Part shown: positions 32,699-43,319 of the stretch, one piece after another | Layout of the letters: the number at the start of each line of letters is the position of its first letter | How positions within the stretch are numbered: position 1 is the stretch's first letter | Assembly: GCA_011391085.1 (NCBI GenBank) | Contig: JAABRD010000016.1 | Location: forward strand, 20,339 to 84,338 | Direction of reading: 5' to 3' | From: Thiotrichaceae bacterium | Lineage (GTDB): Bacteria; Pseudomonadota; Gammaproteobacteria; Beggiatoales; Beggiatoaceae | DNA length: 64,000 nucleotides | The notes under the pieces: generated by a model | Told to the model about the DNA's origin: nothing | The model's database searches: none | Seen by the model: only the letters and a program-made list of their open reading frames with translations | Made by a program: the position numbers and the translations under genes

Positions 32699-34099
32699 AT
32701 GAACTTTCTACCCATCTTTTTAAATATTCAGCAACAACCCTGTCTTGTCGTAGGCGGCGGGGCAACGGCCACTCGTAAAGTGGATTTATTGTTACAGGCC
32801 CATGCCAAAGTTAAAGTTGTCGCACCGACTTTGACGGATTCATTGAGTGATTTGGTGAAACAAGGACGTATTAGCCATCACCCTGCAAAATTTACGGTGA
32901 CTGATTTGCAAGATTGTCGTTTAGTCATTGCTGCCACTAATGATAAAACAGTCAATCAACAGGTGTCTAGTCTGGCCCATCAACAAGGTATTCCCGTCAA
33001 TGTGGTGGACCATCCTGAATTATGCAGTTTTATCATGCCTTCCATCATTGACCGTGACCCCGTTCAAATCGCGGTTTCTACCGGCGGCGCCTCGCCCGTG
33101 TTAGCACGACTGCTACGCGCCCGTTTAGAGACGTTGATACCAGCCACGTATGGACGGTTGGCCGAATTTGTGGCGAGTTTTCGCGAACAAGTCAAACAAC
33201 GCCTACCTTTTAAGGAACGTCGGCATTTTTGGGAAACGGTGTTGCAAGGCCCCATTGCAGAAATGTTATTGTCAGGTCACACCCAAGAAGCCACACAAGC
33301 GTTAGAGGCACTATTGGAGAAAAAGACGACCACTTCCCAGCAACTGGGTGAAGTCTATCTAGTTGGCGCAGGCCCTGGCGACCCGGATTTATTAACTTTT
33401 CGGGCATTGCGACTCATGCAACAAGCTGATGTGGTCTTATATGACCGTTTAGTGGCGCCTGAAGTGTTAAATTTAGCCCGCCGTGATGCAGAACGCATTT
33501 ATGTAGGGAAAGAACCCACCCATCATCCCGTCCCTCAAGAAGAAATCAACCAACTCCTCATTCGGTTAGCCAAAGCTGGCAAACGAGTGTTGCGTTTAAA
33601 AGGTGGCGACCCCTTTATGTTTGGACGCGGTGGGGAAGAAATTGAAACCTTGATGGAGGAGGGTATCCCATTCCAAATTGTCCCCGGCATCACCGCCGCC
33701 ACTGCCGCTTCCGCCTACGCTGGTATTCCTCTTACTCACCGCGACTATGCGCAAGCCTGTGTCTTCGTCACGGCCCATCTGAAAGACAGTCAGATGACGT
33801 TAAATTGGAATTTGCTGACGCAACCACATCAAACTGTCGTGGTATACATGGGTCTCCGGGCGTTACCTTCGCTGACGCAAGAACTGATTCAACATGGAAT
33901 GTCACCCGATAAACCTGCGGCCCTTATTCAGAAAGCCACCACTTCGGACCAACGTGTGTTAGTGGGAACGTTAGCAACGTTACCACGTCTCGTGGAGGAG
34001 GCGAACATCAACATGTATAGTATTATTATCATTGGCGAAGTGGTGACGTTGCATGAAAAACTGGCTTGGTTTACACCGGATAGTGGTTTTAGTGGATAG
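32699..34099 (+). CDS. cysG: Siroheme synthase (multifunctional CysG)
   Basis: A 466-residue fusion that makes siroheme from uroporphyrinogen III for sulfite and nitrite reductases. The N-terminal dehydrogenase/ferrochelatase part has the NAD loop LVVGGGATATRKVDLLL and CSFIMPSIIDRDPVQIAVSTGG; a dimerisation helix follows (about 150-210); the C-terminal methyltransferase (about 217-460) starts VYLVGAGPGDPDLLTFRALR and holds RLKGGDPFMFGRGGEE, PGITAATAASAYAGIPLTHRD and VVVYMGL. All motifs are intact. Divergent from the tusA pair; siroheme supply suits a sulfur-metabolising cell. Confidence 0.96.
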   Translation: MNFLPIFLNIQQQPCLVVGGGATATRKVDLLLQAHAKVKVVAPTLTDSLSDLVKQGRISHHPAKFTVTDLQDCRLVIAATNDKTVNQQVSSLAHQQGIPVNVVDHPELCSFIMPSIIDRDPVQIAVSTGGASPVLARLLRARLETLIPATYGRLAEFVASFREQVKQRLPFKERRHFWETVLQGPIAEMLLSGHTQEATQALEALLEKKTTTSQQLGEVYLVGAGPGDPDLLTFRALRLMQQADVVLYDRLVAPEVLNLARRDAERIYVGKEPTHHPVPQEEINQLLIRLAKAGKRVLRLKGGDPFMFGRGGEEIETLMEEGIPFQIVPGITAATAASAYAGIPLTHRDYAQACVFVTAHLKDSQMTLNWNLLTQPHQTVVVYMGLRALPSLTQELIQHGMSPDKPAALIQKATTSDQRVLVGTLATLPRLVEEANINMYSIIIIGEVVTLHEKLAWFTPDSGFSG

Positions 34100-34123
34100 T
34101 GGATAATGGAGAGTGGAGAGTGG

Positions 34124-34299
34124 GGTAGTGTTGTATAAGTAATGGTATAGCGATTTTGGAGTACGGAATTTATTCCGTTGGAGTACGGAATTTATTCCGT
34201 ACTCCAAAACCCACAACCATTACCTTTGCAACACTACCTATGGAAACGGAATAAATTCCGTACTCCAAAACCCACAACCATTACCTTTGCAACACTACC
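34124..34299. repeat. Family D repeat (GGAATAAATTCCGTACTCC), first copy
   Basis: The ends GGTAGTGTTGTATAAGTAATGG and CCATTACCTTTGCAACACTACC (each a near complement) enclose CGGAATTTATTCCG / CGGAATAAATTCCG arms; the right half occurs twice in tandem. Related to 34447-34604 and 43059-43319. Confidence 0.75.
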
Positions 34300-34446
34300 G
34301 ATAGTGGATAGGTAAGAAACTGAGTTTCTTGGAGTGCCGTTGCGTAAGGTGAATTTAACAATCGAATCAACAGGAAAACACTTATGAATTTTTTTTATTC
34401 CCCATTGACATTCTTGAGAATGTCAGCCACAGTTTTTGCAAGCAAG
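34142..34446. repeat. 305-bp direct duplication, copy 1 (with decoy 5' gene end)
   Basis: Matches 34447-34751. It includes the family D repeat, a leader and the first codons of the giant gene. The copied ATG (34384) lacks one A after it and reads MNFFYSPLTFLRMSATVFASKMV and then stop, so this copy is only a truncated out-of-frame start. Confidence 0.8.
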
Positions 34447-34751
34447 ATGGTATAGCGATTTTGGAGTACGGAATTTATTCCGTTGGAGTACGGAATTTAT
34501 TCCGTACTCCAAAACCCACAACCATTACCTTTGCAACACTACCTATGGAAACGGAATAAATTCCGTACTCCAAAACCCACAACCATTACCTTTGCAACAC
34601 TACCGATAGTGGATAGGTAAGAAACTGAGTTTCTTGGAGTGCCGTTGCGTAAGGTGAATTTAACAATCGAATCAACAGGAAAACACTTATGAAATTTTTT
34701 TTATTCCCCATTGACATTCTTGAGAATGTCAGCCACAGTTTTTGCAAGCAA
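34447..34751. repeat. 305-bp direct duplication, copy 2 (functional 5' gene end)
   Basis: Second copy, differing by one inserted A after the ATG at 34689 and by leading into a longer GCAA run. It holds the family D repeat at 34447-34604. Confidence 0.8.
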
Positions 34752-37700
34752 GCAAGCAAGCAAGCAAGCGACTCTTTTGGCCATTTAAAACTCCACTTCA
34801 CATATCATATTAGGCCACATTTCCTAAGATACCTACTGGTTGCCAGTTTCATTGGTGGACTCACTCTGTCTGAATCATTGTGGGCTGCTGGGACGTGTCT
34901 GCCTTTTGGTGCCGCCTATTATTGTGACATCGACCATGTCAATCATCCTACTCTCACCGCTTGTCAGATTGCTTGTGACCTACCAGTAACAAGCTATACT
35001 TTAACTCTCAATACCGCTGGCACTGGTAATGGGACTGTCACTGGTGGTGGTACTTATACGGGCGGAACCATTGTTGACTTAATAGCAACCCCAGATGCCA
35101 ATTCCACTTTTGCCGGTTGGTCAACAGGATGTAGTAGCGGGATGACGTTAACTGCAGATACGACTTGTACCGCTACGTTTGACCTAATTCCTACTACACC
35201 CGCTGCCACCACGCCCGCTGCCACCACGTCCCCCTTACCTCAAGACATGAGTGTCTTTGTCCAAGTCGACGGTACAGGCAGTGGCCGTGTCACTAGCCCC
35301 GAGTCTGGACTATCCTGCCAAACCAGTGATTGTCAAGAGGACGCCAAGGGTGAACTGGTCTGCGCCACCAATTGTACCACCATCGTTAAAACGGGTAGTA
35401 ATCTTACCCTGATTCCCCAAGCCGACTCTAACTCAATTTTTAGTAGTTGGGGAGGAAACGTGAACTGCGCAGATGGCCAATTGACCACGATAACGGAAGG
35501 CACACTTTGCATTGCTTACTTCCGTCGTCTCTATCAACTTACTATAGAAGTTCAAGGTCCTGGCAATGTGACTGGTAATCGACCTGGTTATGATTCCAAG
35601 AAACCTATTAATTGCGGCGTGGGTCAGACTCAATGCCAAAATACTTATGAATCAGGTACTCAGGACTCTCTACAAGCGCAACCGCTGGGAAATGCTTTAT
35701 TTCAAGGTTGGGGAGGTGATTGTAGCGGGTTGCAAAACCCGTTAATTCTCAATCTCAGTAAAGATATGACTTGTCAAGCTATCTTTCTGGCCCCCACCGC
35801 GGTCAAGTTAGACCAAATAATCATGGACTTTTCACCGGCGACGCCGGCAGAAGTTAACACCAATGCCACTTTAACTGCCACCGGCGGTGCTTCCGGTAAT
35901 CCTGTGACGTTTGCCAGTACCACGCCGACCGTATGTAGTGTGTCAGGTAGCACGGTGAATGTTATCGCAACTGGAACCTGCACAGTCACCGCCGACCAAG
36001 CGGGAAATGACCAATATTACCCGGCGCCTCAAGTGATGGCTAACATGACGGTGAATAATCCTGTCAAGCTAGACCAAACGATTACTCATTTTTCCCCAGC
36101 GACTCCCGTCGTAATCAATAGTGATGCCACTTTAACTGCCACTGGGGGAGGGTCAGGGAATCCCGTCACGTTTGCCAGCACCACGCCAACCGTCTGCACT
36201 GTGTCAGGCAACACCGTCAATTTGGTCAATGTGGGAACCTGCGTGGTGACTGCTGACCAGGTAGGAAATGACCTTTATAACCCAGCACCCCAAGTGATGG
36301 CCAATATTACGGTCACCTCTCCCGCTAAATTAGACCAACTGATAACTATTTTTTCCTCCACTGGAACTGTCGGCGACCAGTTTATCCTAATGGCAACAGG
36401 CGGGGGTTCCGGTAATCCAGTCACGTTTGTCAGTATCACGCCTACCGTTTGCACCGTGTCAAGTAACCTGGTAACATTACTAATAGTCGGCACCTGCACT
36501 CTCACGGCTGACCAGGCAGGAAATGACCTATACAATCCTGCGCCGCAAATGATTGCCAATATCACCGTTCAGAATCCCGCCAAGCAACCGCAACTGATCA
36601 CCGACTTAGTCGCCACCGGCAAGGTCGGTGAACATACCACTTTGAAGGCCACCGGTGGCAATTCGGGTAATCCCGTGACCTTTGCCACGACCACACCTGC
36701 CGTATGTGCAGTCTCTGGCAACGTTGTGACCTTTTTGGCAGTAGGAACTTGCACCATCATTGCCAATCAAGTTGGCAATGACGAATACCAGGACGCTTCG
36801 CCGGAAATCACTCAGATTGAAGTCCATGCCCAGGGCAGTCAAACCAGTCCACCCATAGCCGATTCTACTACCACGCCAGTGTCCACCGTCAACTCACTCA
36901 ATTGCGCGATGACTGACACTGCCGGTATCACAACCATCCGTGGCTTATGTGATGCACGGGGGAAAGTCTTTTCGACGCCCATCGTGATTGACCGGGATGC
37001 GACTCTTAGCAATGCTGTATTCGCCAGTTCCGTGGATAACCATGGATGGATTTCAAACTCCAAAATAACTTCGACTGGCGAGGTCAAAGGAGGCATTTTA
37101 ACAGGTCGTATTGACAATCAAGGCATCGTGCAAGATTTTGAATTTAAAGGCAGTTCCTTCACAGGTGGCACTGTCGGCGGTGTTATTCAAAATACTTCCA
37201 CCGTCGGGGGATGTCTTCAAGATGTCACTTTGTTACCCAATACCACTCTCACAGGAGGATGTCTGGATGGGACCCTCAAAGAGGATCCTAATTTTCCCGC
37301 CGTGTTAGATAATGTCAAAGTCAAGGGCGAAGGGTTGGTTACGGAAATCCCACCTCCAGAAGACACCGGCGTTTTATCTAACGCCCAACTGAATAATTTG
37401 GATGCCGAAACCTTCGGTCACCTCTCGCTAGAAACGATGCGTTTGTTGACAGCCGCGGACCTCTCCCAAATTTCACCAGAAGCGTTCCGTGGCTTGACCG
37501 CAGAACAATTAGCGGCCCTCAGTGAGGAAGCCATCGCCGCGTTGACTCCTGAACAAATGGCCGCGATTTCCCCTGCTACGATGACCGGGTTAACGGCCGA
37601 ACAATTGGCGGTCCTAGATGAGGCAACGGTAGCTGTCATCTCCGGTGAACAACTGGCCCCCATTCCTCCCGACACGTTTAGCACCCTCACCCCAGCACTG

Positions 37701-39083
37701 GTAACCGCTTTGAGTGCTAACGCTTTGGCAAGTCTAACCCCCTCCCAATTTTTATATGTGCCGACTTCGGCGGTCGGTGGTCTGACTGCACAAAACCTGG
37801 GTGGCATATCCACGGACATAATCAGTCGTTTCACACCTGACCATTTGGCGGCTTTGCCTACGGACCAGTTCCAACAATTGCCAAATACCGATATTGGTAA
37901 ATGGTTGAATAACCTTGACCAGACTCGCATTGAGGGGGCCCAAATGGCACCGTTGATTCCTTCCGATTGGCAATGGAACTCAACCACCGGTGCCTTGATT
38001 CCGCCGGTGGGTACCGTGTTGCAACTCAAACCGTTATCGACCACCGAGGCACAAATAGTACCGGTGGTCTTACCTGAACTGCCCAATTTAAAGACCAGTT
38101 TTGGAATCGCTGGCGAAGGTGAACAATCTGTAGAAGAATCGATGCAGTTGACCTTGGACCAGGTCGATTTATCGCAATTTATGCTGTCGCAAGATGAACA
38201 AGGCATTTTACAAGTCCGCGGGACAGGAGAATTTGAAGGCGTCAACTTTGCTTTCATTCCTGATGTTGGTGAAATGATTCAGGTCGACTCCGAAATTCCC
38301 ATTGGTTTGGAAACCATTGAGGGTGGCTTTTTCCAAATGACTACCCCAGATTCACAGCAATTCAAAATTACTCCAGCACCGACGGATCCAAAGGGACTGT
38401 CTCAAGTATTAGGAGGAGGCGCCGTGATAGTAGGAAAACGCGGAGATGTGTTTATGGAAGTTCCCACCAGTTTACGACAGGTTGGTAAGGCTAGAGAAGT
38501 CGTCATGTTTGACCCACTGGTTGAACCGGCCCCAGCCGAATATTGTGAAGACGTTGCGGGAGAGACGGTATGCGATTTTGATAACGCCCCCTTAGAGAAT
38601 CGTCCAGGCATTCGAACCGTTCCAACGACTGGGACACGAGTGAGAGACGTTCCCCATAAAAAAGTTGTCTATCCCAATGGTACAGCCCAACTCATTCGAC
38701 CCACAGTGTTGTCTCCAGATACCTTTATCAATGTTGGTGCAGGCTTTGACAGTGTTGAAAAAGTCCAATTGAATGCCAATGGGACTTTTATCGTGACTCA
38801 TCAAGGGAACAAGTATCTCGTTACTCCCAACTTTGGTCCCAGGAGTCGCCCGGTTGGTGCATCTGAACAGATTGAACCGACCATTGAGTTAGATGCGACG
38901 ACGGGTCATATCACTTACACAATTATGTCAGACAAGGTTCCTCAGACCACTACCGGGACTAAATCGCGACCAGTTCGTGACGGGGAAGCACGCGAGGTAT
39001 TGGAATTTGACTCATTAATTGAACCTGTGCCAGAAGAGAATTGTGAGGAGAACAAGGGGGAGATAATTTGCGAGACTCCGTAG
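34689..39083 (+). CDS. Giant surface protein with (GCAA)6 tract in its 5' end
   Basis: A 1,464-residue secreted protein. Codons 19-27 come from (GCAA)6 (CKQASKQAS). A signal-like segment (LRYLLVASFIGGLTLSESLWAAG, about 52-74) follows. Then: an InlB-B-type repeat (about 95-160, YTLTLNTAGTGNGTVTGGG), two further divergent Gly/Cys-rich units (about 180-365), four Ig-like units of about 85 residues (about 375-715; KLDQ.IT.FSPATP...GNPVTF...PTVC), the same N..WISNSK solenoid-like stretch as in the giant protein at 2433-9907 (about 770-890), a region of LTAEQLAAL-type repeats (about 900-1090), and a C-terminal beta-rich part with a duplicated SRPVRDGEAREV-like motif. No membrane anchor seen. The tract makes it a candidate phase-variable protein. 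Confidence 0.85.
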   Translation: MKFFLFPIDILENVSHSFCKQASKQASDSFGHLKLHFTYHIRPHFLRYLLVASFIGGLTLSESLWAAGTCLPFGAAYYCDIDHVNHPTLTACQIACDLPVTSYTLTLNTAGTGNGTVTGGGTYTGGTIVDLIATPDANSTFAGWSTGCSSGMTLTADTTCTATFDLIPTTPAATTPAATTSPLPQDMSVFVQVDGTGSGRVTSPESGLSCQTSDCQEDAKGELVCATNCTTIVKTGSNLTLIPQADSNSIFSSWGGNVNCADGQLTTITEGTLCIAYFRRLYQLTIEVQGPGNVTGNRPGYDSKKPINCGVGQTQCQNTYESGTQDSLQAQPLGNALFQGWGGDCSGLQNPLILNLSKDMTCQAIFLAPTAVKLDQIIMDFSPATPAEVNTNATLTATGGASGNPVTFASTTPTVCSVSGSTVNVIATGTCTVTADQAGNDQYYPAPQVMANMTVNNPVKLDQTITHFSPATPVVINSDATLTATGGGSGNPVTFASTTPTVCTVSGNTVNLVNVGTCVVTADQVGNDLYNPAPQVMANITVTSPAKLDQLITIFSSTGTVGDQFILMATGGGSGNPVTFVSITPTVCTVSSNLVTLLIVGTCTLTADQAGNDLYNPAPQMIANITVQNPAKQPQLITDLVATGKVGEHTTLKATGGNSGNPVTFATTTPAVCAVSGNVVTFLAVGTCTIIANQVGNDEYQDASPEITQIEVHAQGSQTSPPIADSTTTPVSTVNSLNCAMTDTAGITTIRGLCDARGKVFSTPIVIDRDATLSNAVFASSVDNHGWISNSKITSTGEVKGGILTGRIDNQGIVQDFEFKGSSFTGGTVGGVIQNTSTVGGCLQDVTLLPNTTLTGGCLDGTLKEDPNFPAVLDNVKVKGEGLVTEIPPPEDTGVLSNAQLNNLDAETFGHLSLETMRLLTAADLSQISPEAFRGLTAEQLAALSEEAIAALTPEQMAAISPATMTGLTAEQLAVLDEATVAVISGEQLAPIPPDTFSTLTPALVTALSANALASLTPSQFLYVPTSAVGGLTAQNLGGISTDIISRFTPDHLAALPTDQFQQLPNTDIGKWLNNLDQTRIEGAQMAPLIPSDWQWNSTTGALIPPVGTVLQLKPLSTTEAQIVPVVLPELPNLKTSFGIAGEGEQSVEESMQLTLDQVDLSQFMLSQDEQGILQVRGTGEFEGVNFAFIPDVGEMIQVDSEIPIGLETIEGGFFQMTTPDSQQFKITPAPTDPKGLSQVLGGGAVIVGKRGDVFMEVPTSLRQVGKAREVVMFDPLVEPAPAEYCEDVAGETVCDFDNAPLENRPGIRTVPTTGTRVRDVPHKKVVYPNGTAQLIRPTVLSPDTFINVGAGFDSVEKVQLNANGTFIVTHQGNKYLVTPNFGPRSRPVGASEQIEPTIELDATTGHITYTIMSDKVPQTTTGTKSRPVRDGEAREVLEFDSLIEPVPEENCEENKGEIICETP
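34744..34767 (+). repeat. (GCAA)6 tetranucleotide tract inside the coding region
   Basis: Six perfect GCAA units followed by GCG, 55 bases after the ATG. With six units the 1,464-codon frame is open; gain or loss of one unit would shift it. The same site in the upstream duplicate has only two units. Confidence 0.9.
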
Positions 39084-41044: not shown

Positions 41045-41902
41045 ATGAAAAAGAAATTACAACATCTGATAGATCGTGCCTATACCTTATTAGCACAAAT
41101 AGAATATCATTTTCCTGCCCTGCCTGCTTTGCCAGATTGGCAACAAGTGACGGCCTGTCGCTGGCAAAAACGCAATCAACGAGGGCAATTTCAAATTGTC
41201 TCACATCCTCACCAAATTCGTTTGCAAGACTTGCAAGGAATAAACCATCAAAAGGCCCAAATTGTGCAAAACACGGTGCAATTTTTACATAAAAAACCGG
41301 CCAACAATGTTCTGTTATGGGGGGCACGAGGTACGGGAAAATCGTCTTTAATCAAAGCGTTACTAAATGAATACGCTACCCTGGGATTGCGTTTGGTAGA
41401 AATTGAAAAACATGACTTGATTGACTTGCCAGATATTATTGATGTATTTTATCCACGTCCAGAACGCTTCATTATTTTCTGTGACGATTTATCGTTTGAA
41501 CAAGATGACGCCAGCTATAAAGCCCTCAAAAGCGTCCTCGACGGTTCCATTAGCGCACCGCCTGACAACGTGTTGATTTATGCGACCTCCAACCGCCGTC
41601 ATTTACTCCCTGAATACCTTGAGGAAAATTTAGAAGCGCAGAATATCAATGGCGAAATTCATAATGGAGAAGCGGTGGAAGAAAAAATCTCCCTATCGGA
41701 CCGCTTTGGACTCTGGCTGTCATTCTACCCGTTCAATCAGGAAGAATATCTTGCCATTGTTCGTTACTGGTTACAACAGTTAGACGTGCCTGACTTCTCC
41801 AAGGAGGCACAAACAGCCGCCCTACAATGGGCACTGTTGCGCGGTTCCCGTAGCGGACGATCAGCTTGGCAATTTGCTAGGGACTGGGCGGGGCGGGTTT
41901 AG
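41045..41902 (+). CDS. DUF815-family AAA-type ATPase
   Basis: A 285-residue P-loop ATPase. Walker A is NVLLWGARGTGKSSLIKALL (about residues 94-113), Walker B RFIIFCDDLSFE (about 140-151), with a sensor-like LIYATSNRRHLLPE and a C-terminal helical lid (SRSGRSAWQFARDW). The gap between the motifs and the short N-terminal helical part match DUF815 proteins, whose role is unknown but which are widespread in gammaproteobacteria. Single gene; a family A repeat follows. Confidence 0.9.
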   Translation: MKKKLQHLIDRAYTLLAQIEYHFPALPALPDWQQVTACRWQKRNQRGQFQIVSHPHQIRLQDLQGINHQKAQIVQNTVQFLHKKPANNVLLWGARGTGKSSLIKALLNEYATLGLRLVEIEKHDLIDLPDIIDVFYPRPERFIIFCDDLSFEQDDASYKALKSVLDGSISAPPDNVLIYATSNRRHLLPEYLEENLEAQNINGEIHNGEAVEEKISLSDRFGLWLSFYPFNQEEYLAIVRYWLQQLDVPDFSKEAQTAALQWALLRGSRSGRSAWQFARDWAGRV

Positions 41903-41944
41903 TGGATAATGGATAGTGGATAGTGGATAGTGAAAAAAATCAAG

Positions 41945-43058: not shown

Positions 43059-43319
43059 TTTTGGAGTACGGAATTTATTCCGTTTCGGGCCGAATAAATT
43101 CCGTACTCCAACGGAATAAATTCCGTACTCCAACGGAATAAATTCCGTACTCCAACGGAATAAGTTCCGTACTCCAACGGAATAAATTCCGTACTCCAAC
43201 GGAATAAATTCCGTACTCCAACGGAATAAGTTCCGTACTCCAACGGAATAAGTTCCGTACTCCAACGGAATCAATTCCGTACTCCAAAACCGCTATACGA
43301 TTACTTGTACAACACTACC
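43059..43319. repeat. Family D element with nine tandem 22-bp units
   Basis: Nine consecutive units of GGAATAAATTCCGTACTCC plus AAC (some with AAGTT or TCAATT) run from about 43084 to 43287, between a left GTACGGAATTTATTCCG arm and a right end ATTACTTGTACAACACTACC. It lies 14 bases after the SPFH gene and just before hisS. Confidence 0.9.

Follow-up and report, generated by a model that had tools for sequence, protein, structure and literature searches.

A GCAA tetranucleotide tract at the start of a gene for a predicted giant secreted protein is very probably a translational ON/OFF switch of phase variation, operating by slipped-strand mispairing and forming part of a small phasome. The tract lies in the window, a stretch of 64,000 nucleotides of Thiotrichaceae DNA from a bacterium that is probably a relative of Beggiatoa, a large sulfur bacterium. 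What the DNA itself supplies for this reading is the tract, the frames that it connects, the absence of a start codon that would bypass it, similar tracts elsewhere, some ON and others OFF, and a difference in unit number at a homologous leader.

The GCAA tract and its reading frames

The elements of the window gene and its leader are arranged as follows.

34677–34680, + strand: Shine-Dalgarno-like AGGA, 8 nt before the ATG at 34689
34689–34691, + strand: start codon ATG, in frame with the body at six units (ON)
34689–39083, + strand: predicted secreted repeat protein of 1464 aa with PF18998, PF22359 and PF20080 domains
34712–34731, + strand: imperfect palindrome TGACATTCTTGAGAATGTCA in the leader, predicted to fold into an RNA stem of 8 bp
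34726–34728, + strand: second ATG in another frame, in which no Shine-Dalgarno motif was found upstream; in frame with the body at four or seven units
34744–34769, + strand: (GCAA)6.5 tract, encoding KQAS repeats that precede the signal segment
34824–34889, + strand: segment FLRYLLVASFIGGLTLSESLWA resembling a signal peptide, which aligns with homologue N-termini

The tract consists of 6.5 units at 100% match, six perfect copies ending at 34767 and a final GC, and reads cagtttttGCAAGCAAGCAAGCAAGCAAGCAAGCgactc in the window. An earlier note on this DNA had reported six perfect units at 34744–34767, located 55 bases past the ATG and ahead of a signal-like segment, and our analysis agrees on each point: 55 nt separate the ATG at 34689 from the first unit, and the hydrophobic core of the signal-like segment follows at approximately residues 48–60. 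Behind this segment, the 1464-aa protein carries InlB-type B-repeats (PF18998), bacterial Ig-like repeats (PF22359) and ALTTAQ repeats (PF20080). A scan of genome contigs gave a single weak relative, a Thiotrichaceae MAG with 27% identity, and so offered no comparison between strains. A search near the gene revealed no sigma-70-like promoter, and neither a terminator nor a promoter was found inside its leader.

Simulating the number of GCAA units in silico gave proteins of 1460, 1464 and 1468 aa at three, six and nine units, and closed frames of 38, 31, 42 and 35 aa at four, five, seven and eight units, respectively, so the proposal that the frame is ON at six units and closes with one unit fewer or more holds. 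The region from the tract up to the close of the signal segment contains no in-frame ATG, GTG or TTG, so translation of the gene has to pass through the tract. Over the first 110 codons, the sole such codon past the tract is TTG 34878, where the signal segment ends.

During replication, the tract would slip and gain or lose 4-bp units, presumably in a reversible manner in living cells. With six units (or three, or nine), a ribosome starting at ATG 34689 would proceed through the tract and the signal peptide into the 1464-aa putative surface protein, the ON state. With five or eight units, it would stop after 31–35 codons, giving the OFF state, and with four or seven, only the second ATG at 34726, preceded by no Shine-Dalgarno motif, would be in frame, where weak expression is possible. 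The repeat peptide precedes the signal segment and would be cut off on the predicted export to the surface, so that unit number would alter whether the protein is made, not the mature protein.

In the shuffled window, 0.03 matches to (GCAA)4 with at most two mismatches are expected. A genome-wide pattern search identified the window tract as the sole locus with four or more GCAA units in the 5.77-Mb, 140-contig draft genome (G000), where the window occupies C49:20339–84338, and (GCAA)5 is absent from all 42 other family genomes searched (43 including its own). In 1,471,414 bases of G000 taken regardless of the question, there are no tetranucleotide tracts of at least four units, 45 tracts of three units, and no pentanucleotide tracts of four units. 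Within the window, the contingency-tract reading is thus supported by a repeat unexpected by chance, placed between the start and the signal segment, with a frame that one unit closes and no rescue start downstream.

Companion tracts in the genus and the family

Stronger support comes from outside the window, from eight companion tracts and from a leader homologue that is three units shorter. The companions are built of ACAG or ACCA units in 4–10 copies; three are found in the gene's own genome (G000) and five in one genome of the same genus (G001).

G000, contig C85: (ACAG)9
G000, contig C64: (ACAG)5
G000, contig C52: (AGAC)4
G001, contig C36: (ACAG)5
G001, contig C77: (ACCA)5
G001, contig C392: (ACCA)8
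G001, contig C397: (ACCA)10
G001, contig C400: (ACCA)5

Each tract lies 20–23 nt past an ATG, itself preceded at 6–8 nt by an AGGAG-like motif, and stands before another large repeat-protein ORF, mostly of predicted secreted type. These loci have ATGNNTYATCAANANGATATA-tract-GCNAAAATCGTGCCAA as their conserved core, and the complete cassette comprises an M-x-x-Q-x-D-I leader (ATGNNTYATCAANANGATATA), the tract and a post-tract SCQ motif (TCGTGCCAA). The bodies behind it differ, with RCC1, beta-propeller/cadherin-like, InlB-type, Ig-like, G8, leucine-rich repeat and fn3 domains. Seven companions are OFF and one, C397 with ten units, is ON; for the seven with ACAG or ACCA as the counting unit, the frame opens at four, seven and ten, and for C52, counted in AGAC units, at three and six. 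The OFF bodies stay long and open, for example over 2224 and 1262 codons. The three companions in G000 were first met as protein relatives, and the genome-wide ACAG pattern gave the same three and no other; together, the GCAA and ACAG searches yield four loci in G000, all at such gene starts. Pure tracts of the five-unit ACMR pattern occur in only 2 of the 43 family genomes, G000 and G001, and G001:C211 carries a pure (ACAG)6 tract without the companion leader. Membership of the window gene in this leader family was rejected, as it has no match to ATGNNTYATCAANANGATATA or TCGTGCCAA and possesses a leader of its own, shared only with G001:C438.

Shorter or decayed copies of the companion cassette are present at G000:C62 and C56 and at G001:C446 and C74. 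In two of these, G000:C56 (L246) and G001:C74 (L249), the leader and promoter region are kept, the tract is degenerate or reduced to two units, and the body is lost or truncated. The ORF behind the OFF switch leader at G000:C52 (L062, 1279–5016) joins a reverse transcriptase domain, whose best PADLOC match is RT_UG4 (E 4.5e-66), to InlB-type repeats.

A further tract occurs in G007, which belongs to another genus of the same family. At G007:C64:32562–32596 (L290), (CAAT)8 follows straight after ATGAAAT and precedes the signal-like segment of a predicted secreted-type ORF of 222–230 aa; it is OFF and opens at four, seven and ten units. Separately, (CAAT)8 at G056:C90:23818–23848 (L295) ends one base before the ATG of an ORF of ~500 codons, in the place of a Shine-Dalgarno motif, where it could alter initiation.

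Over ten loci in three genomes, which are homologues or paralogues and not strains of one locus, two are ON and eight are OFF. Because the companions share their leader by descent, they are not independent cases, and their sequences suggest about three independent origins: the GCAA leader, the ACAG/ACCA leader and CAAT in G007. This distribution makes it unlikely that the window tract is a neutral microsatellite, tolerated in a little-constrained pre-signal leader and switching nothing. Such a repeat would be at home in a leader that would be cleaved off, six units is short, and the homologues in G001 and a further family genome, G011, do without any tract. However, tetranucleotide tracts are otherwise absent from the 1.47 Mb sampled, yet occupy the equivalent gene position at ten loci in three genomes, and most of these loci are OFF with long open bodies, an outcome not expected if a neutral repeat had been inserted into a gene that the cell needs.

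We assign a very low probability to regulation by an upstream peptide, whereby the leader would act as a small regulatory ORF, with the body translated from another start through translational coupling or ribosomal frameshifting, so that unit number is not decisive. The hairpin-like palindrome in the leader, the leaders of ~20–77 codons that OFF loci retain in overlap with the body, and an in-frame ATG lacking a Shine-Dalgarno motif at one locus, G001:C392, are in line with such control, but in the window gene no start codon occurs from the tract to the end of the signal segment, different repeat units serve the same place, and the leader fold, with a z of −0.89 as a whole, is no better than that of shuffled sequence. 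RNA structure as the main feature was rejected for this last reason.

For the genus as a whole, we lean towards a multi-locus phasome in probably free-living, probably sulfur-oxidising bacteria, comprising a portable leader with an exchangeable ACAG/ACCA switch before unrelated giant surface proteins, a second leader family with GCAA and, in another genus of the family, a tract of CAAT. On the main reading of the GCAA tract as a switch, the window locus belongs to a set of such switches in its genus.

The window leader, its homologue and a 305-bp duplication

Among 43 family genomes, the window leader has a homologue at G001:C438 only, with 76% over 89 positions. CAAG periodicity extends over 13 nt in G001:C438 versus 25 nt in the window, a difference of three units, and the flanks are conserved, including GAYWCYTTTGGC on the far side of the tract. 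The palindrome is partly conserved as well, and the body behind the G001:C438 leader is lost. The earlier note had proposed counting units in related genomes as a check, and this homologue has three units fewer. In none of five relatives (G001, G003, G008, G011 and G012) does the surface gene lie beside cysG, and so the cysG region offers no orthologous position at which units could be counted directly.

According to the same note, homologues with an in-frame start beyond the tract would refute a switch. This applies only in part: the homologues of the window gene in G001 and G011 begin directly before the signal peptide and are tractless, but the window gene has the upstream ATG only. By comparison with these homologues, the window gene has lost their pre-signal start codon and depends on the upstream ATG.

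The region at the start of the window gene is present twice, as a tandem repeat of 305 bp.

34142–34446, + strand: duplication copy 1, with intergenic GGAATTTATTCCGT repeats and the 5' leader; leader ATGAATTTTTTTT (A2T8); ends after about two GCAA units
34447–34751, + strand: duplication copy 2, with ATGAAATTTTTTTT (A3T8); leads on to the tract and the live gene

The repeat covers the promoter-side repeats, the ATG, the leader and the start of the tract, and its copies differ by one A. The leader of copy 1 reads MNFFYSPLTFLRMSATVFASK, in the same frame as the homologous G001 leader, MKFLHPLLTFWRGSTTIFTSK. By parsimony over these three sequences, the live copy would have gained one A, shifting the ON state from four or seven units to six. 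With near-identical copies side by side in a 140-contig draft, an artefact of assembly or recombination, in which the duplication and the tract were misassembled, might be suspected; we regard it as highly improbable, as the 26-nt tract fits within a short read, and other loci and a second genome independently display an equal design.

Other repeats are common around the gene. Repeats of 22 bp of the GAATAAATTCCGTACTCCAACG type form arrays and inverted pairs and are very abundant between genes (43092–43287 and 34156–34200 in the window; ~189 matches in the genome). Heptanucleotide (TAGTGGA)n arrays lie at 34090–34123, 41900–41932 and other positions; among short tandem repeats in the genome sample, this type is the most frequent, accounting for 16 of 20 heptamer arrays.

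Relation to known contingency loci

Tetranucleotide tracts in Haemophilus influenzae lie at the start codon or shortly after it, with two exceptions, and use eight units, including GACA, CCAA, GCAA and CAAT (PMC2651432). They are found in lex2A and the lav autotransporter (CAAG/GCAA), lgtC (GACA), iron-uptake genes (CCAA) and the lic genes (CAAT), and the tracts described here resemble these contingency loci in repeat units and position (PMC2651432). They differ in belonging to another lineage and to unrelated surface proteins, and in having 4–10 units, as opposed to often 10–38. Here, in addition, units and bodies are exchanged behind one shared leader, and the variation is known between loci and genomes rather than within a strain. 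As six units is short compared with many H. influenzae tracts, switching of the window gene may be slow, and loci with 4–10 units probably switch less often than those of H. influenzae. At multi-start loci of the lic type, ATGs in different frames lie ahead of the tract. The window gene likewise has two ATGs in different frames before its tract, which could give three expression levels; unlike in lic-type loci, its second ATG has no visible Shine-Dalgarno motif.

Marine Beggiatoaceae, the family to which this genome probably belongs, contain TAACTGA direct repeats, which are heptanucleotide, intergenic and proposed to be post-transcriptional regulators (PMC4679880). Both are short tandem repeats near genes, but the window tract is coding and frame-switching, and the TAACTGA repeats are neither. 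The mechanism is known, and the lineage is new. In the open-access literature, we found no paper pairing "phase-variable" with Beggiatoaceae or "phase variation" with Thiotrichaceae.

Genomes with multiple switches have so far been described mainly in host-adapted pathogens, and a 2025 review lists among the major open questions why only pathogens seem to have genomes rich in phase-variable loci, or whether this pattern reflects database bias (PMC11868660). With at least four loci in this genome and five in its sister genome, in a lineage without a known host, whose lifestyle we infer, the question raised by that review becomes directly testable from existing reads. If the reading is true, slippage switches could be maintained by pressures besides host immunity, for example phage, predators or attachment in mats.
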